Assembly (NCBI RefSeq): GCF_000002865.3
Contig: NW_001865079.1
Coordinates: forward strand, 116,294-180,293
Origin: Monosiga brevicollis MX1
Taxonomy: Eukaryota; Opisthokonta; Choanoflagellata; Craspedida; Salpingoecidae
Direction of reading: 5' to 3'
DNA length: 64,000 nt
Each line of letters begins with the position of its first letter. Positions within the stretch are counted from its first letter, which is position 1. The notes below the pieces were generated by a model that worked only from the letters and a program-made list of their open reading frames with translations, made no database searches and was not told the DNA's origin. This document shows, in pieces, positions 10,096 to 21,345 of the stretch. Position numbers and translations under genes: made by a program.

Positions 10096-10308
10096 ACGAC
10101 AAGCGATCAGACGCCGGTCGTGTCAGACAGTGAAATTCTCAAGTGCTGCTCCCCAAACCGGCCGTGCAATCGCCGACACTACAGGCAACTGACAGTGAGC
10201 GCTTTGCAAAGCCTGCCATGAGCGATCGGCAGCCCTCTGGCAACCCCTCAGCGCACTTCATACACCTGGCTCACTGCTGCATTTGCTCCGCCTGCCTCCT
10301 ACCCAGCA

Positions 10309-13300
10309 ATGCCCGAAGTCGCCGCCGACAAAGGCAAGAACGGACGGCTGTCCAACGCCGCCAAGGCGGGGCATCGCCGCCACGTCTACCAAAACCCCAA
10401 GACCTCGAGGATCGAAAGGGGCTGGATGCAGCAGGAGCTTAATCGTGGCCGCACCTTCAACACTATGCGCAACCTACCCGGCACCCACATCGACCACACG
10501 AGAAACCATCCTGATTTCTGTCGTACCCAATGGGCGTCAGACAACAGTAGCCGTGGTGCTCGTCTTGGCAAGGAAGGTGAAGCCATCCGCACCCGTGCAC
10601 AGCCCAAGGCGCAAACAACGGGATGGAAAGGCCCACGCGGCGGCGGCGGCAGCAGCAGCAGCAGCGGCATTGGTAAAAGTGTCGGTGCTGGCACTCGTAG
10701 CGCTATGCAGGCAGCAAGCCGCACCGCCGCCCGCCAGACTGCACTGCGCACAGGCGCACGGATTGCTGGCAGATGGCTTGCGGGTGGTGCCGCGCGCGTG
10801 CTTCTGTGCAGCGTGCCTGGTGGCGCATTTTTCTCGGCCGCGCTGCTGGCCGTCGACCTCTACATGAGCTACTACAACACTTGTGGGGGCGACGATGGTG
10901 GCCCCGGTCGTGGAAATCGCGAGATGGCCCGCGATCCGGGTGGGGTAGCCGTTCCTCGTGGAAATCTGGAGGCCTTCAGCAAAGCCCCAGAACTTGCCGC
11001 CGACGATGCCGCTGCCGTGCTGGCCATTCTTATACCCCGTGCGGAGGCGGAGCTTCAAGGTCTTCCCTTCAGCTCTCGCACGGGTGACCTGCACTCCGCC
11101 GTGGTGCAGATCGTTGTGGCAGAACTCGCCACTAGCATCTACGTCGACAACGCCTACCCGTTTTTTTCCCTTCATTTCAACAAGGATGCCTGCCTTTACC
11201 CCGTGCTGCACCCGCTGCTGCGCGAGACGCTCGTGGGCCACGTCATCGCCACGCTGGACTACTACCTCAAGGGGTTCCTCAACGGCGGCGTGTACCCCGT
11301 TGAATACCTGATGAACTGGCACGAAGGCAGCTGCGGGGTGCAGCGTGAGGAGCTTAGGCAACACGTTGTTGACCTCCGCACCTTGGTGGCAACCCACGGT
11401 GGCGAGGGGGTTGCGTATAAGTCACTTCTCGAGATGCTGGCTGAGGCTGGCGTCGCAGACCTTGTAAGAGGGACCGATCAGCCCGAAGAGGCCACCAGCA
11501 CCGGCAAAACCACCGACGCATCGGCCAGCAAGTTCCGCACCAGTTTTCGCATTATCGGGACCCTGGAGCGAGCCGAGCGCGATGGTGACGTCGTCGCCTT
11601 GGTGCCCGGTTTTCGTGTCGAATACACGGTGGAGACCACACCTGCTTATCAGAAGGTGTTAGACGCTCATCTTGCTGAGCATGGCGTGTACCCAGATGGC
11701 TATGCCACTGTGCAGCGTGTGTATGCGCGCGCGGCTCGGGCTGCAGAGCAAGTCATGCCCCGCATCCCTCTCTTTGCCCCCTACTTTGCCATGCTCCGCA
11801 TCATCACAGCCTGCTCCGCACTGGTGACGTCGCTTCGGTCGACAGGGAAACTGCCACTCCTGAGTCTGCCAGTCGATGCATTCCGCACGGGGGCCAACTG
11901 CAAGCTGACACGCCTGACACCTCCTTTGTATCCCCCCCTGCCCGTGCGCTACTACAAGCAGCACGTCATTTCGATACGTCTGCTAGACCTCGTCAACCAG
12001 CTGCGTGCCAACGACAACCTTTCTGCTCTCACGCTAGACTCGCGTCACACACGAGCCTTTGAGCCCTCCAAGCTGGATCGTGAGATGGAGAGGCTTTCCT
12101 TACGCGTCTTTGAACCAATGGCCGACGTTACTTCCGCCGTCCAAGCTGCTGTTGCTACACTGGCCCAGCGCCAGCTGCCAAGCGAAGTGGACTTTGCCAG
12201 TGTCGACCTGGACGCTCTCCAGACGCACGTTCAAAATCAGTTGACTGCAGTGGCCGACGCTTGGCCAACAGTGCTGCTGCCCCGAATGATTGTGGATACA
12301 ACACGGCATTTACTGGCCACGTCCCTCTTTGATGACGAGCCGTCACAGCTGCCAAACGATGGCGGTGTGGACATTGAAGCTCATGAAAAAGCTGTCAGGG
12401 CCAGAATGCCCAGCAAAGAGGTGACGGAGCAGCTACTGCAGCCATTCCTGCGCCGCCTTTCGACCATAGACACAGTGCCTGACCGCAGCACTGCCGTCCG
12501 CCAGCATTTTGCCGATGAACTCATCACGGCTTTCCGAGCGTCGGCACTGTTTCCTCCGTGCAAGTTTCGCGAGGAGAGCCGCTTGCGAAAGCAAATTTTG
12601 CACACGCAAACTCAGTTGCGTGAAGAGCTCGCCAAAATTGATGTTTATCAACGCAGCATGGAGAAGGCTACCGAGGAGTACCGGACATCCCAGCTTGAGG
12701 CGCTTGCACAGGAGGTCCAGGATCTACATGCAGGCTTTGACCGTCGGGTGCTCGCCGTGCCTCCCGGCTGTGCCGTTGACCCAGCCGCAGTACAAGCCTT
12801 TCGGCAGTGGCTAGCCGATCAGGAACGACAGTCGCGTCAGCAGATTGAGGAAAGAGTGCAGCGCCAGGTTACAAGCAATGCCCAGGCTTTGGATGACGCT
12901 CGTCGCGATGTCAATCAGAAGGTGCAGAAGTTCATCCAAGGAATCGAACATACACTGCAGGTGGAGCCAGAAAAGCGACTCATGGGCATCCTCTCGGAAA
13001 AAGCTTCAGCATATTCATCTCAGCTTGCGGATGGAATTGTCCAGCTTCATGCCCGCCAGTCGGCTATCATTTTCCTTGACGACAAGACGATAAAGGGAAG
13101 AGTCGTGTCTCGCTGCTTGGGCGTGGCGGATCGGAGCTTCCTCAATGGGCATCAGGAGGATCCGAGGATCATAGGGGGCTGCGGGGTCAGCCTTGAGGAC
13201 CTAGAGGACAGCCCGCTTTTAGCCACCACCCTATCGACCGCTCAGGCACAACACCTGCGCGTAAGCCTCGCGCTCAAGACCTCTGCGGGATCCAGCACAG

Positions 13301-16300
13301 ACGTGAACGCCCAAGCTGTGGGTGCAACTGTGACCCGGCTAGATTTGGAGAATGGCCAATCTGCACTGGCTTTTCGCTGTCCGACTGAGAACGGATGCCT
13401 TGCGTCGCCCTCTGAAGCCACGCTTTGGCGAGCATGCACCCACGACGGCCGCGGGCACGTGACACCCGGACTTGGGCTAGTCATGGCAGAAGCTCGAGCG
13501 CTCATCGGCGACTGCCTCGAGCATGACGACTCGGTTGCTGAGGTAAAGGCAAAGCTATTGACGCTTGTAAAGCAATCACCCAGCGTGGTCTCAAGCCTTT
13601 CGCAGCTGGCTGCCGAAACGGAGCCTGCTACGGGCGCAACCCTGCTCCACGTGGCGGCAGCCTTTGCTTGCCCTAACGCCACCGAAGTGCTATTGGAAGC
13701 AGGCGCCAATGCAATGGCGACGGACAACGAGCAGGCCACGCCACTGCACTACGCCGCCGCTGCCGCGGCAGCTTTGCTGGAAGAAGGCTCGCGCGGCAGT
13801 GCTAACGACCCTGACACCAGCCCACACCAGGCTGTTGGCAATTTTGCAGGGGAGCATGAGGCACCAGAGCTGGCAACAGTACGGCTTTTGGTGAATGCGG
13901 GCGCATCGCCTTTTGTAAGACAAGGCGCGGGCCTAACGCCACTTTTCGTCGCCTGTCAGGGAAATGCTGCCGCCACGGCTCTGGCCATGCTGGATACACA
14001 CAAGGCTGGTGGTGGGTGTGACGTCAATGTGGGCCCGGACTCGGACATGATGCCCCTCCACTGCGCCGTAGCCCACGACATGGCGGCCGTGGCAGCTCGC
14101 CTTGTCCAATGCGGAGGGAGCTTGGAACGGCGGCGGCGTGCCGATGGTGCCTCTCCATTCCTCTACGCATGCATGCGAGCGTCCCATTCAACACTGGACG
14201 CTATGCTCTCTGCGGCCAAGAATGTACCGGACATTGACCACATGCTGGAGGGAAATTACAACTGCCTGCACTGCCTTGCCGCCTATTCTGGCAACAAGTC
14301 CTTGGCCAGCTGCTCCGACCTCCTTCAATCTGCCCAGGTCCTCCAAGCGGTTTACAAGGGTGCCAGCTGGCGGAGTCTCTGCTGCCAAAAGGACAGCAAC
14401 GGTCGGACACCAGCAGAACTCGCACTGGGCAGTGGTCTGCCAGAACTTGCCATGTTACTTGGCGAGCAGCTGGACGCCGATTCTGAGTTGCGATGCTTAC
14501 AGGCCGCCCTGGCTGCGGGAGCTGAAAGTTTTCTACGGGCCCACGCAGGACGCTTGCCACCAGATCTTGCCCGTGGGTGTGTGAAGCGCGGCTTCCGTCT
14601 CATGTATTCTCCTCAAAAGACAGAAAAGATCGTGAGTGATGCCCTGAATGCCCATACTGGCGAACAGGATGCAACCTTGCTGCTTACAGCCGTAGCACAA
14701 ACACGGCAAGCCGTTCTGTTGCGCACCATTCTGGAAAAGCAGCACAAGGGCAAACTACAGGTGGCCGAGTTCCTCAGACTCGCGGCAATAGCCAATGACG
14801 TCTCCCTTGTGAGCGAGACTTTACCAAAGGCGGACCAAGCGGCCATGCACGCATCGCTTTGCGCCGCACTGCGGCAGGCATCCTTGATGGCTGCCAGCCT
14901 GCTAGCCGACAAGCTGAATTTTACAGTGCTCGCCAAGCCGCAGATTGCCGAGGTTGTGGAAGCCGCCATATTGTCACAAAATCGGGACGGTTGGGCCCTC
15001 ATCGCACGCTTCGTAGCGCCGGATGATATGCAGCAGCTTCCGTCGTGTCGGAATGGCAACGCACTGCACTTGGCCGTGACCAGTGGAGCCACCATCCTCA
15101 TCCCAGCCATCGCTGCTGCCGGGGTATCGAGCGAGCAGCTTGACGACGATGGGCGCTCACCGCTCGAGCTCGCCGTGGCCATGAGTAGCCCTGCGCTTGT
15201 GGAGACGATGTGGCGCGTTCGGCCATCGCGGCTGCGCACTGGCGAGGACCCGGGCGTTGTCAGGGACACGGCGCCATCTGATGCCTCGCTTTTGACCCGC
15301 GCCATCTGCCACGCTCTTGAGCTAAGTGATGAGGTCATGTTGAGAACCCTTCTGCGGCTCCCAGGTGACGGTTCCAAGGCAGAAGCCTTGTTGCGTCAAA
15401 TACCTGCAGCTGAGAAGAGTCGGCTTCTTCGCCACAGCATTGACACGGGGGCTCTTGCCCTACTCAAGTTTTGCCTGGGGCTTCTCCGATGCATCCCGAC
15501 CCCCGATGCCGTGGCCGCTGCTGCGGTCAAGGACAGACCGGACCTTGTCGCCTCCCTCTTGGATACCTTAGCGGGTCAGAACAACCCCAAGGTGCTAAAT
15601 GAGGCCGTGGTGGCTGCTTACGAGGCTGCTATGGGTGTCTCAACACCCGTGTTGGGCCTCGTGCACCTTATGGCCAACGGCAAGGTGGGGACAAGCACAT
15701 CTGCGGCGGACGCGTGTAAAATGTGCACCACGACGCCCTCCTTGATGCCCCTTGTGCAGGCGGAACAGCTTGCAGGGCGTCTCCGTGCTGTGCAAAACGC
15801 GATTGAATCAGGCACGGTCGCTGAATTGCGACATGCACTGAAAGAGCTCCCTGATAAGGGTCTACACTTTCGTGACCCAGATACGGGCAGCCCGTTGCTA
15901 CACTGTCTTCTTGCCAAGCGGCGTCTCAACGCCCTGAATGTGCTCCCGCCTGGCTACAAACTAAACTCCCTGGACTTGGGCGGCCTGAGCAGCTGGACCC
16001 TGATGCTTCAACAGCTATCAGCCCAGGATATGAATGAATGGCTGCAGGCTTTGTGCTTGAGTGGGCATCAGACACGAAGTCAGCTGGCAGACGCACTTCT
16101 CTGCTCTGTAGGGGGGCATACGCCCTTTGAGCTGGGGCGCATGGGACTGGCTCAAACGACGGGGCTCCAAGTGCTCGCCACGCACGTGGCTGTTGGTTGT
16201 GAGGATTCCGAGGTCGATGCCGTGTCGACGCTGCCGGTCGTGCGCGGAGCGGGCAAATATGTGGGCTGCACTGCACTTCACGTGCTTTGCAGCGAGGCTG

Positions 16301-19300
16301 GTGCGAGTGCCGTCCAGGCGTACCTGGCGGCTCTGGAGGAAAGAGGTGCGAGCCCGGCAGTTATGCGCCAGGTGGTGAACGCCCGAGACCGGCAGGGTCG
16401 CACTCCACTGATGTGCCTGGCTGCTAGCCGCGGGACTGATGTTGGGTTTGCTGCTCTTACAAGGGCCGGCGCGGAGTTTGATGCCGTGGACGGATGCGGC
16501 CGCGGTGTGCTTCATCACGCGATTGCGGCCAGTCACACTACATGGCTTGGCAATGTCCTCTTGGATCCAACCACTGCTTCCCTGCTACCTCGCGGGCCCG
16601 ATGCCGATGGACGGAGGCCCGCCATGCTGGCTGCCCAGCTTGGGCTTGGTCAGGTGCTACGGCTCTTGCTGCTTCACAGGGACGAGCAAGAACACCTATG
16701 CACGCCGGATGTGTGGGGCCACACGGCGCTCACCCTGGCTGCTAGCGAAGGTCATGACGACCTTGTGTGTATGTTGGTAGATGACTATGGTGTAGACCCG
16801 GATGCTGTGTGTGAGGGGCCGCTCAAGGTTGACATTCAGCAGCGTTCCATGAGCAGCAGCGGACTTGCCGCAAAGGCAGGTATGACTGCAATTCACCTGG
16901 CAGCGCAGCGGGGCCACATGCCCGTCGTGCGTGCCCTTCATCATCGTGGTGTTTCAGTGTCAAGGCCCAATGTACATGGACAAACTGCGCTGCAGCTGCT
17001 CTTGAGCGCCGGGCGTGCGGATGCCATTGACCTCCTGTCACCGACACAGCTCATGGCGGTGGCCAACGAGCCACAAATGGGCGCCAGCCTCTTATCCGCC
17101 GCCGCACGCGGCAACCTATCCACCACAATTCTTAATTTGGTCCACCTTGCCGGCATCGCAGTTGATGCCGCCGATGCCAAGACGTTGATGACACCGCTAC
17201 ATGTAGCCGCAGCCACAGGTGCGCTGCAGTCCGTACGTGCTCTCCTCGACCTCGACGCAGATTTTCTGGCTTGTGACTGCCAAGGTCGCACGCCGCTGCA
17301 CATGGCAATTGAGTGTCGACAGCCAGACGCAGCCGCAGAGCTTCTACGGGCCGCACTGGAGGAGGGTGAAATAAAACGGCTTTGTGCCGCGACGACTGCC
17401 GATATTGTGGGTGGGGCAACAGCATTGCATGTGGCAGCCGAGGCAAACGATGTGGCCACAACTGCACGCCTATTGCGAGCTGGGGCTGATGTCAATAAGC
17501 CTGACGCCCGTGGGAACACACCAGCTCTCTGTGGCTTGCGGCGCCACGGTGATGGTGGTGACCTGAGAGTGCTCCAGCTTCATGTTGCTTATGGCGACGA
17601 GAGCCTGGCGTCACGTGTTAAGTTACCGTCAAACCACGGCAAGGAGGCGGCGGCGTTGCTTGAACGCTTGAGGTATGAGAAACCCCTGGTCAAGCCGGGC
17701 GAGCCACATCCACACCCACGGCGGCGTCTGTATCTTGAGCCGGATGACGTTACCCACGCTGGGGACATTCGACCACTTCTCCGCCGCGCCTTAGAAAGGA
17801 GCAGCAGCCAACTAATGGAGCTGGCGCAGGTACAACTAAGGTCCGACACCAGCAATGATGGCCCCAAGACGACCGGAAACACGCCGATCGCAGAAAGCGC
17901 TGGCGCCACCTCAAGCACGTGGCTAGATGTTGCCCAGGAAAGCGACTCGTGTCTTGCGGAATACTTTGTTGCGGTGACCGAAACCACGGGAGCTGAAGAC
18001 CTCCTTGAGACTCAAACGCCAGCTGTCATGACGGTGGCAGAGCGGCGTTTGGCTGTGCGGCAAGCCTGCCAGGGACTCTTGCAAGCCCATTGGCACTTTG
18101 GGGCAGAGGGTACCAAAATTGCGGTGGAACACCTCAACTCAACCAACCTCACAGCCAAAGACGTATCTCTGACCGCGCTCTGGCCGGGCAGGAAGACTGC
18201 CAAGCAAGCTCTCCTTGTCAGATGCATTGCCGAAGCTGCACGTGGGCCTTGTGAAGCCGATGTACTTCAATTTGGACTGGACGCCATGCTTCGCTGCGCA
18301 CCCGATAGCTTAAGCGCGGCCGGCGCTAGTGCACTTGGTTTAGTGCTGAACCAACTGGTCTGTGTTGGAGGCTCTCTCTGGCTTGGCTTTGTGTGCACTA
18401 GCGGCGCGGCGGGGGGCGCACTGGCTGATTTGACGGGTTTTGCACAGGATACTATGGATCTTTTGTCGGCGTGCCAGGATGAGGCTTCCTCCCTCAGGGC
18501 GCTCAAGTCGCTAATCCCTAACGCACTAGCACGAGGCGCAGCTCGGATAGAGTGCAAGAAGCATCGTGCACGGGTTCCAGCGGTATCACCCAAGCCAAGT
18601 GCAAAGGGCCCGGCAGTATCACCCAAGCCAAGTGCGAAAGGGCCGGCAGTAGCACCCAAGCCAAGTGCGAAAGGGCCGGCAGTAGCACCCAAGCCAAGTG
18701 CGAAAGGGCCGGCAGTAGCACTCAAGCCAAGTGCAAAAGGGCCGGCAGTAGCACTCAAGCCAAGTGCGAAAGGGCCGGCAGTAGCACCCAAGCCAAGTGC
18801 GAAAGGGCCGGCAGTAGCACCCAAGCCAAGTGCGAAAGGGCCGGCAGTAGCACCCAAGCCAAGTGCGAAAGGGCCGGCAGTAGCACTCAAGCCAAGTACG
18901 AAAGGGCCGGCAGTAGCACCCAAGCCAAGTGCAAAGGGGCCGGCAGCGGCGGCACGTGGCGTCAATCTGGACCGAGCAGCTGGGTCAGCCAACACAAAGC
19001 ATGCGCAAATAACCTCGACTCCACACCTCAAAGACTTACGCGCAGCTGCACAGCAAGCTTTGGCCGTGGCGCTAGCCAGCGCCTTTCCGGACCATGACGT
19101 CGAGCATGTGGAGCAGTCGTTTGCTAAGGACGTCTCCCACCCTCTCTCTCCAGACGTGCTTGCCCACTGCACAATGTTGTTTGACACGATCGAAAAAGCG
19201 GAGCAGCGGTTGTCGGCGATGGACATGAGCGGTGTGGTAGCGGAGGCGCGACAGCTTGGACAGCATCTAGCCAAGCGCCCTGGTTGCGGTTTTCCTCACT

Positions 19301-21345
19301 CCACGGACGACGAGGGCTGGAAGCAATGTGCTCACCTGCTAGCTGTACTTCGTGTCACGGCACGTCGGCGTCTAGGCGTGCGGCCGTATACAACACAGTT
19401 GTTTTCCCTCCTTGCCCTCCTTCATGGCATGGATGCCGATGGCGAAGGGCTGCAAGGTCGCGTGGCGCAAATTCGTACAGGGGAGGGCAAGTCGCTGCTG
19501 TTGGCTCTTCTTGTCGCATACCTTGCCCTGTGCGGACGCACCGTGGACGTTGTGACCAGCTCGGACGGTCTAGCCACTCGTGATCAGGCAGAATTTGCAT
19601 CCTTTTATGAAGAGTTTGGCCTACGTGGGGCACACATCTGCCGAGAGGAGCCGCAGCCTGAGCACTTTGAAGCCCCCATTGTCTACGGCACGAATGCGGC
19701 ATTTGAGTTTGGCGTGCTGCGGGCGATGTTAGGCTGGCCAGGTGCGGCTGTTGCGAGCAACGGTGCGCCACGTCTGCGCGATGTTGTTGTAGTGGATGAG
19801 GTGGACAACATGCTGATTGACACGGCCTTGTCGCCAGCGCGCCTCGCCCGGCCGCGGCTGCATGATTGGACCTGGCTGTACGAGCCTATCTGGCATTTTG
19901 TGGAGAAGGTTTTGAACGCGGAGAGTACCAGCGCACCATGCTCTCGGCTTCGGAGCCACCTGAACAGTGTGCTGCTGCCAAGCCTTCGCGAACAGCTTGC
20001 CGACGTTCCAGATGATGACTTGGGACGCCTCGTTGCCTCAGCACTGGCGGCACGTAGCAAGAAGCGCAACGTCGACTATGTGGTGCAGAATGACGAGGTG
20101 TTGATTGTGGATTGGGCCCATACAGGTCAGTTGCAGCACGGGTCGCGATGGTCCGGCGGCGTTCATCAGTTTGTCGAAGTGAAGGAGGGGTTGGAACCGA
20201 AGAGCGAGTCCTTGACTGTCGCCTCGCTCGCACACCCGTCCTTCTTCAACGGATATCGAAAGCTCGTGGGGGTCTCCGGTACCATTGGGTCTGTGGGAGA
20301 GCGCAGCGAAATTGGTAAAATGTACAACACGTCCAGCTTTGATGCACCCACGCACCGCACTCGCCTGCTAAAGCAACTGCCGACGATCCTGGTGGATGGT
20401 GACTATGAGAAGGTATACCTCCCTCGGCTTTGTGAGGAGGTGGTGCGAGCCGCAAGTGGGGAACAGGCACGGCCTGTATTGGTACTGTGCGCGACGCTTC
20501 GGAGCGCGCAGCAGGTGACTGCCGCGCTGGCTAGGTCGTCTGCTGCCGGGTCCTGGGCCCGCCTCCAGCAGCTTACCAAGGTGCAAGCGGAGGACGAAGC
20601 GCTCATTGTTCTTCGTGCTGGAAAGCCCGGGACGGTGACTGTGGCTACCAATGCTGCCGGGCGCGGGACGGACGTGCGGCTAGCCTCCGAAAGCATCCGA
20701 TCCGGGGGCTTACATGTGCTCATAACGTTCCTTCCGGCCAATCTGCGCGTGGAGGAGCAAGGCCTGGGCCGTGCCGGTCGGCAAGGCCAACCAGGAACCG
20801 GGTGTCTTTTCATCCACACGGGTGGTACAGATCAGCTCGTTCATACCCTAACTCAAGGCACGCGCTGCGCATCAACGCTGGGGGTCAAGCAGCTTTTCAC
20901 CCTACGCGAGGCGTACATTGAAGCACAGTCTGAGGCACGCATGCGACGCGCTGCGTTGGAGCGCCGGCTTTATGGCCTGCTATACCGATTCTCGCAATGC
21001 CTGTCCCAGTTTCGCTGCATAACAGTCGGGGCGATGGAGCAAGCTGCTGGTATGCCGAAGAGCAGTGCACCCGCGCTGACTAAAGCCCTGTGCCAGCTTC
21101 GCGGGAAGGCTGCACCAGAAGAAGAGCCTTTGCTGTATCAGGCGGAGGGGCTTCGAGCCCGGGCCGGCGTGGTGCTCGAAGAGGCTTGGGCGGTGTTCTT
21201 CTCGCAACAGTGCCAAGTGACCGCCAGCAAGGATGATGCCTACGTGGAGGACCAATTCAAAGTCTGGGCTCAACAGTGGCTCCCGGATGATGCCGTCATG
21301 TGGTTACGTGGAATTCTACTGATGCCGGGGCATGAGGAAGCTTGA
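10309..21345 (+). CDS. Giant ankyrin-repeat protein with C-terminal SecA-type ATPase motor (intronless coding region)
   Basis: One open frame of 3,678 codons. A basic, glycine-rich N-terminus is followed by a hydrophobic segment at about 163-187 (AARVLLCSVPGGAFFSAALL), a possible membrane anchor. A long helical region includes a probable coiled coil at about 760-895. Ankyrin-like repeats lie at about 1105-2420 (e.g. TGATLLHVAAAFACPNATEV, GGATALHVAAEANDVATTAR). Eleven 11-residue repeats occupy 2757-2877. The SecA-like motor spans about 3020-3530: QIRTGEGKS (Walker A, near 3055), TSSDGLATRDQAEF, IVYGTNAAFEFGVLR, VVVDEVDNMLID (Walker B, near 3162), KEGLEPKSESLTVASL, GVSGTIGS, ATNAAGRGTD (near 3446) and GLGRAGRQGQPG (near 3486). 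In bacteria this motor drives preproteins through SecYEG. No Sec channel gene is visible here and the role in this cell is unknown. All core ATPase motifs look intact. The first in-frame ATG after an upstream stop is used. Confidence 0.93.
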   Translation: MPEVAADKGKNGRLSNAAKAGHRRHVYQNPKTSRIERGWMQQELNRGRTFNTMRNLPGTHIDHTRNHPDFCRTQWASDNSSRGARLGKEGEAIRTRAQPKAQTTGWKGPRGGGGSSSSSGIGKSVGAGTRSAMQAASRTAARQTALRTGARIAGRWLAGGAARVLLCSVPGGAFFSAALLAVDLYMSYYNTCGGDDGGPGRGNREMARDPGGVAVPRGNLEAFSKAPELAADDAAAVLAILIPRAEAELQGLPFSSRTGDLHSAVVQIVVAELATSIYVDNAYPFFSLHFNKDACLYPVLHPLLRETLVGHVIATLDYYLKGFLNGGVYPVEYLMNWHEGSCGVQREELRQHVVDLRTLVATHGGEGVAYKSLLEMLAEAGVADLVRGTDQPEEATSTGKTTDASASKFRTSFRIIGTLERAERDGDVVALVPGFRVEYTVETTPAYQKVLDAHLAEHGVYPDGYATVQRVYARAARAAEQVMPRIPLFAPYFAMLRIITACSALVTSLRSTGKLPLLSLPVDAFRTGANCKLTRLTPPLYPPLPVRYYKQHVISIRLLDLVNQLRANDNLSALTLDSRHTRAFEPSKLDREMERLSLRVFEPMADVTSAVQAAVATLAQRQLPSEVDFASVDLDALQTHVQNQLTAVADAWPTVLLPRMIVDTTRHLLATSLFDDEPSQLPNDGGVDIEAHEKAVRARMPSKEVTEQLLQPFLRRLSTIDTVPDRSTAVRQHFADELITAFRASALFPPCKFREESRLRKQILHTQTQLREELAKIDVYQRSMEKATEEYRTSQLEALAQEVQDLHAGFDRRVLAVPPGCAVDPAAVQAFRQWLADQERQSRQQIEERVQRQVTSNAQALDDARRDVNQKVQKFIQGIEHTLQVEPEKRLMGILSEKASAYSSQLADGIVQLHARQSAIIFLDDKTIKGRVVSRCLGVADRSFLNGHQEDPRIIGGCGVSLEDLEDSPLLATTLSTAQAQHLRVSLALKTSAGSSTDVNAQAVGATVTRLDLENGQSALAFRCPTENGCLASPSEATLWRACTHDGRGHVTPGLGLVMAEARALIGDCLEHDDSVAEVKAKLLTLVKQSPSVVSSLSQLAAETEPATGATLLHVAAAFACPNATEVLLEAGANAMATDNEQATPLHYAAAAAAALLEEGSRGSANDPDTSPHQAVGNFAGEHEAPELATVRLLVNAGASPFVRQGAGLTPLFVACQGNAAATALAMLDTHKAGGGCDVNVGPDSDMMPLHCAVAHDMAAVAARLVQCGGSLERRRRADGASPFLYACMRASHSTLDAMLSAAKNVPDIDHMLEGNYNCLHCLAAYSGNKSLASCSDLLQSAQVLQAVYKGASWRSLCCQKDSNGRTPAELALGSGLPELAMLLGEQLDADSELRCLQAALAAGAESFLRAHAGRLPPDLARGCVKRGFRLMYSPQKTEKIVSDALNAHTGEQDATLLLTAVAQTRQAVLLRTILEKQHKGKLQVAEFLRLAAIANDVSLVSETLPKADQAAMHASLCAALRQASLMAASLLADKLNFTVLAKPQIAEVVEAAILSQNRDGWALIARFVAPDDMQQLPSCRNGNALHLAVTSGATILIPAIAAAGVSSEQLDDDGRSPLELAVAMSSPALVETMWRVRPSRLRTGEDPGVVRDTAPSDASLLTRAICHALELSDEVMLRTLLRLPGDGSKAEALLRQIPAAEKSRLLRHSIDTGALALLKFCLGLLRCIPTPDAVAAAAVKDRPDLVASLLDTLAGQNNPKVLNEAVVAAYEAAMGVSTPVLGLVHLMANGKVGTSTSAADACKMCTTTPSLMPLVQAEQLAGRLRAVQNAIESGTVAELRHALKELPDKGLHFRDPDTGSPLLHCLLAKRRLNALNVLPPGYKLNSLDLGGLSSWTLMLQQLSAQDMNEWLQALCLSGHQTRSQLADALLCSVGGHTPFELGRMGLAQTTGLQVLATHVAVGCEDSEVDAVSTLPVVRGAGKYVGCTALHVLCSEAGASAVQAYLAALEERGASPAVMRQVVNARDRQGRTPLMCLAASRGTDVGFAALTRAGAEFDAVDGCGRGVLHHAIAASHTTWLGNVLLDPTTASLLPRGPDADGRRPAMLAAQLGLGQVLRLLLLHRDEQEHLCTPDVWGHTALTLAASEGHDDLVCMLVDDYGVDPDAVCEGPLKVDIQQRSMSSSGLAAKAGMTAIHLAAQRGHMPVVRALHHRGVSVSRPNVHGQTALQLLLSAGRADAIDLLSPTQLMAVANEPQMGASLLSAAARGNLSTTILNLVHLAGIAVDAADAKTLMTPLHVAAATGALQSVRALLDLDADFLACDCQGRTPLHMAIECRQPDAAAELLRAALEEGEIKRLCAATTADIVGGATALHVAAEANDVATTARLLRAGADVNKPDARGNTPALCGLRRHGDGGDLRVLQLHVAYGDESLASRVKLPSNHGKEAAALLERLRYEKPLVKPGEPHPHPRRRLYLEPDDVTHAGDIRPLLRRALERSSSQLMELAQVQLRSDTSNDGPKTTGNTPIAESAGATSSTWLDVAQESDSCLAEYFVAVTETTGAEDLLETQTPAVMTVAERRLAVRQACQGLLQAHWHFGAEGTKIAVEHLNSTNLTAKDVSLTALWPGRKTAKQALLVRCIAEAARGPCEADVLQFGLDAMLRCAPDSLSAAGASALGLVLNQLVCVGGSLWLGFVCTSGAAGGALADLTGFAQDTMDLLSACQDEASSLRALKSLIPNALARGAARIECKKHRARVPAVSPKPSAKGPAVSPKPSAKGPAVAPKPSAKGPAVAPKPSAKGPAVALKPSAKGPAVALKPSAKGPAVAPKPSAKGPAVAPKPSAKGPAVAPKPSAKGPAVALKPSTKGPAVAPKPSAKGPAAAARGVNLDRAAGSANTKHAQITSTPHLKDLRAAAQQALAVALASAFPDHDVEHVEQSFAKDVSHPLSPDVLAHCTMLFDTIEKAEQRLSAMDMSGVVAEARQLGQHLAKRPGCGFPHSTDDEGWKQCAHLLAVLRVTARRRLGVRPYTTQLFSLLALLHGMDADGEGLQGRVAQIRTGEGKSLLLALLVAYLALCGRTVDVVTSSDGLATRDQAEFASFYEEFGLRGAHICREEPQPEHFEAPIVYGTNAAFEFGVLRAMLGWPGAAVASNGAPRLRDVVVVDEVDNMLIDTALSPARLARPRLHDWTWLYEPIWHFVEKVLNAESTSAPCSRLRSHLNSVLLPSLREQLADVPDDDLGRLVASALAARSKKRNVDYVVQNDEVLIVDWAHTGQLQHGSRWSGGVHQFVEVKEGLEPKSESLTVASLAHPSFFNGYRKLVGVSGTIGSVGERSEIGKMYNTSSFDAPTHRTRLLKQLPTILVDGDYEKVYLPRLCEEVVRAASGEQARPVLVLCATLRSAQQVTAALARSSAAGSWARLQQLTKVQAEDEALIVLRAGKPGTVTVATNAAGRGTDVRLASESIRSGGLHVLITFLPANLRVEEQGLGRAGRQGQPGTGCLFIHTGGTDQLVHTLTQGTRCASTLGVKQLFTLREAYIEAQSEARMRRAALERRLYGLLYRFSQCLSQFRCITVGAMEQAAGMPKSSAPALTKALCQLRGKAAPEEEPLLYQAEGLRARAGVVLEEAWAVFFSQQCQVTASKDDAYVEDQFKVWAQQWLPDDAVMWLRGILLMPGHEEA
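18577..18939 (+). repeat. 33-bp tandem repeat in the SecA-ankyrin gene, 11 copies
   Basis: The repeat encodes eleven copies of PAVAPKPSAKG, with S, A or L varying at the fourth or fifth position and one T for A. The array is a proline-rich, lysine-bearing linker between the ankyrin region and the SecA motor. Copies are nearly identical in DNA, which suggests recent expansion or ongoing homogenisation. Confidence 0.97.

Follow-up and report, generated by a model that had tools for sequence, protein, structure and literature searches.

The window analysed here, 64,000 nt of the choanoflagellate Monosiga brevicollis MX1 (contig NW_001865079.1, positions 116,294 to 180,293), lies on contig 16 of the 39.5 Mb, 57-contig genome. 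The gene in question is a single open reading frame (ORF) of 3,678 aa on the forward strand (10309..21345), as are the parts of it given below. The stop-to-stop frame around the ORF spans 10222-21345, and the chance of 3,707 open codons is about 10^-58 for independent bases of the window's composition. A sequence-only reading had recognized here a SecA-type motor fused to ankyrin repeats in a eukaryotic gene, and the ORF, its motifs and its Pfam matches bear this out. The motor (aa 2942-3634; 19132..21210) comprises, according to Pfam and structure comparison, nucleotide-binding domain (NBD) 1, an insert resembling the preprotein cross-linking domain (PPXD), NBD2 and the start of the helical scaffold. 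The profile search proposed with that reading placed both SecA_DEAD (aa 2952-3327, E 3e-47) and SecA_PP_bind (aa 3220-3290, E 2.7e-10; profile positions 47-110 of 110) over the Pfam cut-off, as was P-loop_SecA (aa 3384-3460, E 2.9e-14). Walker A (TGEGKS, aa 3057-3062; 19477..19494), Walker B (VDEVD, aa 3162-3166; 19792..19806), motif V (TNAAGRGTD, aa 3447-3455; 20647..20673) and motif VI (RAGRQGQPG, aa 3488-3496; 20770..20796) are intact, with their residues in invariant alignment columns.

Two parts of the architecture had been overlooked. An N-terminal domain (NTD; aa ~200-560; 10906..11988) was recognized by profile and BLAST comparison with bacterial ankyrin proteins and fused relatives; it holds invariant residues and has no Pfam or PDB match. 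Remote from motor and ankyrins, window aa ~260-516 are also matched by BLAST in the metagenomic ankyrin-SecA proteins P0002-P0004 and in the bacterial fused protein L114 (blastp of window against L114 over the NTD: 255 columns, E 3e-27). The second part is a tandem array of 11 copies of 33 bp (18583..18946), encoding a Pro/Lys/Ala linker (aa 2759-2880) directly before the motor with the unit PAVAPKPSAKG. Its copies show 96% matches, GC content at third codon positions falls to 0.46 within it, and its copy number could differ among strains. Between NTD and linker lie a charged helical, coiled-coil-like segment, read from composition only (aa ~720-900; 12466..13008), and ankyrin repeats (aa ~1105-2430; 13621..17598), delimited by the best Pfam stretches and by reading the translation, with Ank families over the Pfam cut-off. 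A hydrophobic segment (aa 164-182; 10798..10854; Kyte-Doolittle value 2.06) is a possible membrane segment, as had been suggested. Its conservation did not hold up: over the 260 residues that precede the NTD motif, 12 of 14 relatives gave values of 0.47-1.32 and two gave none. A conserved membrane anchor is therefore ruled out, since the 12 relatives with values lack the segment.

Domain content, domain order and motor grouping establish, at the level of sequence, that the window gene is the fused form of an NTD-ankyrin-SecA protein whose halves exist in bacteria as two neighbouring genes; the earlier account of it was incomplete in that the gene is no lone oddity. Separate frames matched by the NTD profile, which was built from a set that includes the window, were found in six loci also holding a motor of the window's clade (L008, L009, L010, L011, L013 and L115). 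In the first four of these, the NTD frame measures 2,192-2,367 aa and either overlaps the motor frame or ends at most 69 bases from its start, and the three NTD frames scanned for ankyrin repeats (L008, L009, L010) are full of them. These three gene pairs, like the fused forms in bacterial L114 and in the amoeba Acytostelium subglobosum (P0040), share with the window the same domains in the same order, the NTD profile and the motor clade. The pairs differ from the window in that most bacteria seen have two genes whereas the window has one, and the window has the tandem-repeat linker and the hydrophobic segment in addition. L114 lies on the same contig of its genome (G002) as a canonical SecA. 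Parsimony over 21 rows requires five or more switches between the split and the fused state.

Among 112 genomes of the Legionella family, the NTD profile matched 12; a thirteenth match (G077) was dropped as chance-like (E 2.3e-4, seven stops). A clade motor (at least 690 bits) was likewise present in 12 of the same genomes, and NTD and motor occurred together in 11, with one genome each holding one alone. In 10 of the 12 NTD-bearing genomes, NTD and motor share a strand and the motor begins 5.2-7.9 kb downstream from the NTD; actual frames were read for G001, G002 and G003. The NTD profile also matched 18 of 151 Chlamydiota genomes, and a motor search of these 18 found the clade motor (at least 700 bits) in seven. 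No NTD match occurred in 147 genomes from the family of a Glaciecola, a free-living bacterium. Canonical SecA stood alongside in seven of the nine genomes first checked and was not seen in G005 and G009. As judged from these profile matches and frames, the split module occurs at least in the Legionella family and the Chlamydiota, and in single bins of Verrucomicrobia and Neisseriaceae. A protein search with eight long sequences yielded 52 matches, and 26 of the 51 apart from the window carry the NTD. Nine of the 26 are fused to the motor, including P0040, whose available sequence is missing the Walker A stretch; P0018 of Legionella nautarum is an unfused NTD protein.

Several observations weigh against the NTD gene and the motor gene forming a constant pair. 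A 343-aa frame stands between them in L013, the order is reversed in G006 (L115; motor before NTD gene), one pair in G192 is separated by 13 kb, and the two lie on different contigs in G007. No clade motor was seen in the NTD-bearing genome G018 or in 11 of the 18 NTD-bearing Chlamydiota genomes, and G021 has the motor without the NTD. Within the motor clade, the NTD profile found no NTD in P0005-P0009, nor in the fetched stretches of L015-L019, L028 and L088 (L015 ends with its contig). Furthermore, the NTD tree does not reproduce the grouping of the window with P0002-P0004 seen in the motor tree; P0002-P0004 sit on a very long branch there, and the window and P0040, also on long branches, have no resolved placement. 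Two side observations concern the NTD's distribution. In P0005, MyTH4 and FERM occupy the NTD's place (residues 376-695); the same ankyrin-SecA chassis may here have been re-targeted in a way particular to eukaryotes. In some Chlamydiota (G142, G146, G155, G184, G189 and others), where no clade motor was seen, the frames that carry the NTD measure about 550-1,100 aa, possibly a stand-alone form of the domain.

The phylogeny suggested earlier was run against bacterial SecA rows, with no plastid SecA among them. In a tree of 65 rows chosen by hand from the motor hits, from which many near-duplicate actinobacterial and other SecA2-like rows as well as the very divergent L116, L117, P0010, L004 and L005 were left out, a branch supported at 100/100 separates 26 rows, the window among them, from canonical SecA, from SecA2-like rows and from secondary rows of the planctomycete type. 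The members of this clade are SecA-like motors from Legionellaceae, Parachlamydiaceae, further bacteria and a few protists; many of the bacteria are known from protist hosts. In a second tree of 44 rows, the window groups with P0002-P0004 (96/89) and with P0005, labelled UC4 in EukProt (93/92), which carries MyTH4-FERM, ankyrin and SecA domains and presumably stems from an uncultured choanoflagellate; the Acytostelium protein is placed apart, without resolution. A protein search with the motor region returned ten proteins (the window, P0002-P0004, P0005 and five others), and a search restricted to SecA-length proteins returned six matches, the top one at 31% identity and 169 bits. In the scan of prokaryote genomes, the eleven top relatives among the best 80 of 207 were five Legionellaceae including Tatlockia bins, two Parachlamydiaceae, a Lac Pavin gammaproteobacterium, one Verrucomicrobia and one Neisseriaceae metagenome-assembled genome and one further bacterium. 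The same motor clade includes a SecA-like protein of 3,555 aa from L088, an IMG/VR contig that is filed as viral and may be a mis-filed bacterial sequence.

The motor is thus of SecA type but differs from canonical SecA (B. subtilis, PDB 6itc and 1tf5) in several respects. It belongs to the separate clade (100/100), so that a remnant of canonical SecA is ruled out by the tree as far as bacterial canonical rows are concerned; it is preceded in the same chain by NTD, ankyrins and linker, about 2,900 residues in all; and no bacterial-type SecY was found in its genome. SecA_SW and SEC-C gave no Pfam match in the protein up to E 0.1, and the C-terminal part is shorter, with 182 residues after motif VI vs 319-349 in four canonical SecAs. 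The predicted motor model has the overall SecA fold, with a long scaffold-like helix, and superposes on SecA of SecY-bound structures. Two helices (709-738/744-758), predicted with middling confidence, form its end, and the alignment reaches residue 768 of 6itc_A; the motor may therefore have an end resembling the two-helix finger that enters SecY, which counts against the Sec-independent reading given below. The best single-sequence PDB match is C. difficile SecA2 (6t4h, E 3.7e-57); however, four SecA2 NCBIfam models give 164-209 bits vs cut-offs of 725-1,100, and accessory SecA2-like bacterial rows sit in the other half of the tree. The planctomycete and acidobacterial rows (L031, L048, L072, L084 and others) likewise group with canonical SecA and SecA2.

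CRAL_TRIO is encoded upstream of the ORF (7.2-8.0 kb), and exons of CBM_21, mitochondrial-carrier and subtilase genes lie downstream, the subtilase gene being broken by apparent introns when read by eye; four of eight scanned flanking frames had no match. Runs of N occur in the window only at 35.7 and 49.1 kb, and since the first is at 35.7 kb, no gap separates the ORF from the CRAL_TRIO, CBM_21 and carrier frames. Bacterial contamination or misassembly might be suspected where most relatives are bacterial or metagenomic and the frame is uninterrupted, but the gap-free flanks with eukaryotic domains on either side, one of them in a gene with apparent introns, make its probability practically negligible. 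The base composition points the same way: 2-kb bins covering the ORF have a GC content of 0.57-0.61 vs 0.505-0.601 in the other bins, and 13 of 14 fetched bacterial or viral-filed clade loci have 0.27-0.45 (the exception, L018, has 0.59). The protein collection also lists the same protein, on a contig of 288,870 bases. At least 150 cadherin matches and 146 PDZ matches in the genome fit a choanoflagellate, and single open frames of 11,470, 7,963 and 5,934 aa with cadherin matches exist on its contigs C40, C22 and C10 (G000). Since frames reach 11,470 aa in this genome, the lack of interruptions over 11 kb does not point to a recent transfer. The NTD-ankyrin-SecA gene is a single-copy nuclear gene. 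The same genome holds two further divergent SecA-like single-frame genes that had escaped the earlier view of the window, encoding long proteins with a weak SecA_DEAD match: L004 (G000:C48:682500-692400) and L005/L006 (G000:C51:65000-81400). The C51 copy has a vWA domain at its end and, by eye, a GTPase-like P-loop at its start, for which Pfam names no GTPase.

SecA is usually described as a motor working with a SecYEG-type channel, and choanoflagellates are not known to have a plastid. The one SecY-family match in the genome is Sec61-alpha (544 bits); the SecY-family search found no bacterial- or plastid-type SecY in the assembly, which is possibly incomplete, and in this respect the earlier reading is supported. 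Our leading reading, to which we give slightly less than an even chance, is a Sec-independent polypeptide-remodelling ATPase that moved between intracellular bacteria and protists. In agreement, in outline, with the re-use as a remodelling ATPase proposed from the sequence, we infer that the motor uses ATP to pull on polypeptides, that NTD and ankyrins choose the target, and that the protein acts outside the Sec pathway. The NTD and the ankyrin superhelix would recognize a protein target and hold on to it, and the two RecA-like domains, passing through ATP cycles together with a SecA-type clamp formed by the PPXD-like insert, would pull an exposed polypeptide segment, by which the target may be unfolded or stripped off a partner. 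This would take place outside the Sec pathway, with no bacterial-type SecY found to take the chain and a C-terminal part shorter than canonical. The module may have moved between intracellular bacteria and bacteria-eating protists, the host keeping a single-copy nuclear gene. The best-supported step is the joint action of the NTD-ankyrin half and the motor half, because the two are repeatedly fused and paired. A bolder version, which we consider rather unlikely, is a putative two-part machine of a giant NTD-bearing ankyrin protein and a Sec-less SecA motor that acts in the eukaryotic cytosol, is used by intracellular bacteria of several phyla on their protist hosts, and was captured in fused form by choanoflagellates and dictyostelids as a host-protein unfoldase.

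A working translocase that pushes chains through Sec61 or another channel across the endoplasmic reticulum or another membrane would account for the complete set of SecA motor motifs, the preprotein cross-linking region, the superposition of the predicted model on SecA in SecY-bound structures and the hydrophobic N-terminal segment. Yet the only SecY-family match is Sec61-alpha, none being of bacterial type, SecA_SW is unmatched, only 182 residues follow motif VI, and all 12 relatives giving a value lack the hydrophobic segment, which makes this reading improbable. Still less would one expect an ordinary superfamily 2 helicase acting on nucleic acid: a merely generic helicase is ruled out by the structural superposition and by SecA_DEAD, SecA_PP_bind and P-loop_SecA over their cut-offs. 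The protein could instead be a domesticated defence factor or sensor, a captured bacterial effector in immune use, whose ankyrin and NTD parts bind microbial or damaged host proteins for extraction or unfolding by the motor. The relatives, which include bacteria-eating protists and numerous bacteria from intracellular groups, fit such a role, and ankyrin effectors are known in Legionella (PMC4256840); but PADLOC matches the window only with two ankyrin-region models, adding MzaA for the NTD-ankyrin gene of one bacterium and a weak DpdF for a bacterial motor, and we regard this role as distinctly unlikely.

Transfer from bacterium to protist is modestly favoured, because the split two-gene state was seen only in bacteria. 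The opposite course, capture of a eukaryotic fused gene by intracellular bacteria followed by splitting, keeps a sizeable minority chance. It draws on an approximately unbiased (AU) test, in which placing the ten known bacterial rows as a clade apart from the eukaryotes was not rejected (p 0.178), on the ankyrin repeat, which is commonest in eukaryotes, and on eukaryote-to-bacterium transfer argued for other SecA-domain genes in PMC3639933 and PMC4256840; these points count against a bacterial origin. Set against such a capture are the restriction of the split state to bacteria and the spread of the motor there (12 of 112 Legionella-family and seven of the 18 NTD-bearing Chlamydiota genomes), whereas, of those relatives listed under the name of a eukaryotic source, only UC4 and Acytostelium carry the motor, eukaryotic genomes not having been surveyed as the bacterial ones were.

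SecA-like proteins of eukaryotes and symbionts are known already; new are the NTD and the traceable bacterial two-gene counterpart. The function had been called undescribed, and the literature we found contains none, although the existence of eukaryotic SecA-domain genes is in print. Eukaryote-like secA genes of Wolbachia wBol1-b, with matches in insects, Polysphondylium, Tetrahymena and Salpingoeca, are those for which eukaryote-to-bacterium transfer was argued (PMC3639933). Like the window gene, these Wolbachia/Amoebophilus-exchanged genes are giant SecA-domain genes of eukaryotes and intracellular bacteria; by description, and in the available part of that article, no ankyrin or NTD gene accompanies the motor, and the C48 and C51 copies may be of their kind. 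L. fallonii lfa2470 [SecA DEAD-like], listed as acquired from eukaryotes in the part of PMC4256840 consulted, is comparable by description as a SecA-like Legionella gene of proposed eukaryotic origin, with no architecture given there. SecA-like domains are mentioned for Amoebophilus effectors (PMC3482391) and SecA-like ATPase domains for giant actinobacterial toxins (PMC8195603). Secondary SecA_DEAD proteins of Planctomycetes-Verrucomicrobia-Chlamydiae bacteria resemble the window motor in having SecA_DEAD without SecA_SW or with only a fragment of it, and differ in that the available text of PMC4452313 describes no ankyrins; their identity with rows L031, L048, L072 and L084 is presumed. The literature searched holds no account of the NTD-ankyrin-SecA pairing. 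If our reading is true, a SecA clade that stands beside giant ankyrin proteins in several groups of bacteria, many of which are intracellular, and forms one chain with them in protists for which the search gave no bacterial channel, would represent a SecA mechanism freed from secretion. The single-copy gene in an apparent close relative of animals offers a concrete test case for Sec-free SecA, and the NTD with its invariant residues would be a new conserved domain and a target for structure work.

Additionally, we identified related giant proteins of other composition. An OTU-type cysteine protease domain occurs with NTD-ankyrin-TPR in P0034 (3,436 aa) and with SecA in P0048 (3,520 aa). Legionella-type genomes hold further giant divergent SecA-like frames, namely L118 (Legionellaceae, 3,274 aa), L116 (L. 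quinlivanii, 3,920 aa) and L117 (Legionellaceae, 2,760 aa), and one such genome of 2.3 Mb has seven SecA_DEAD matches, including the canonical one.
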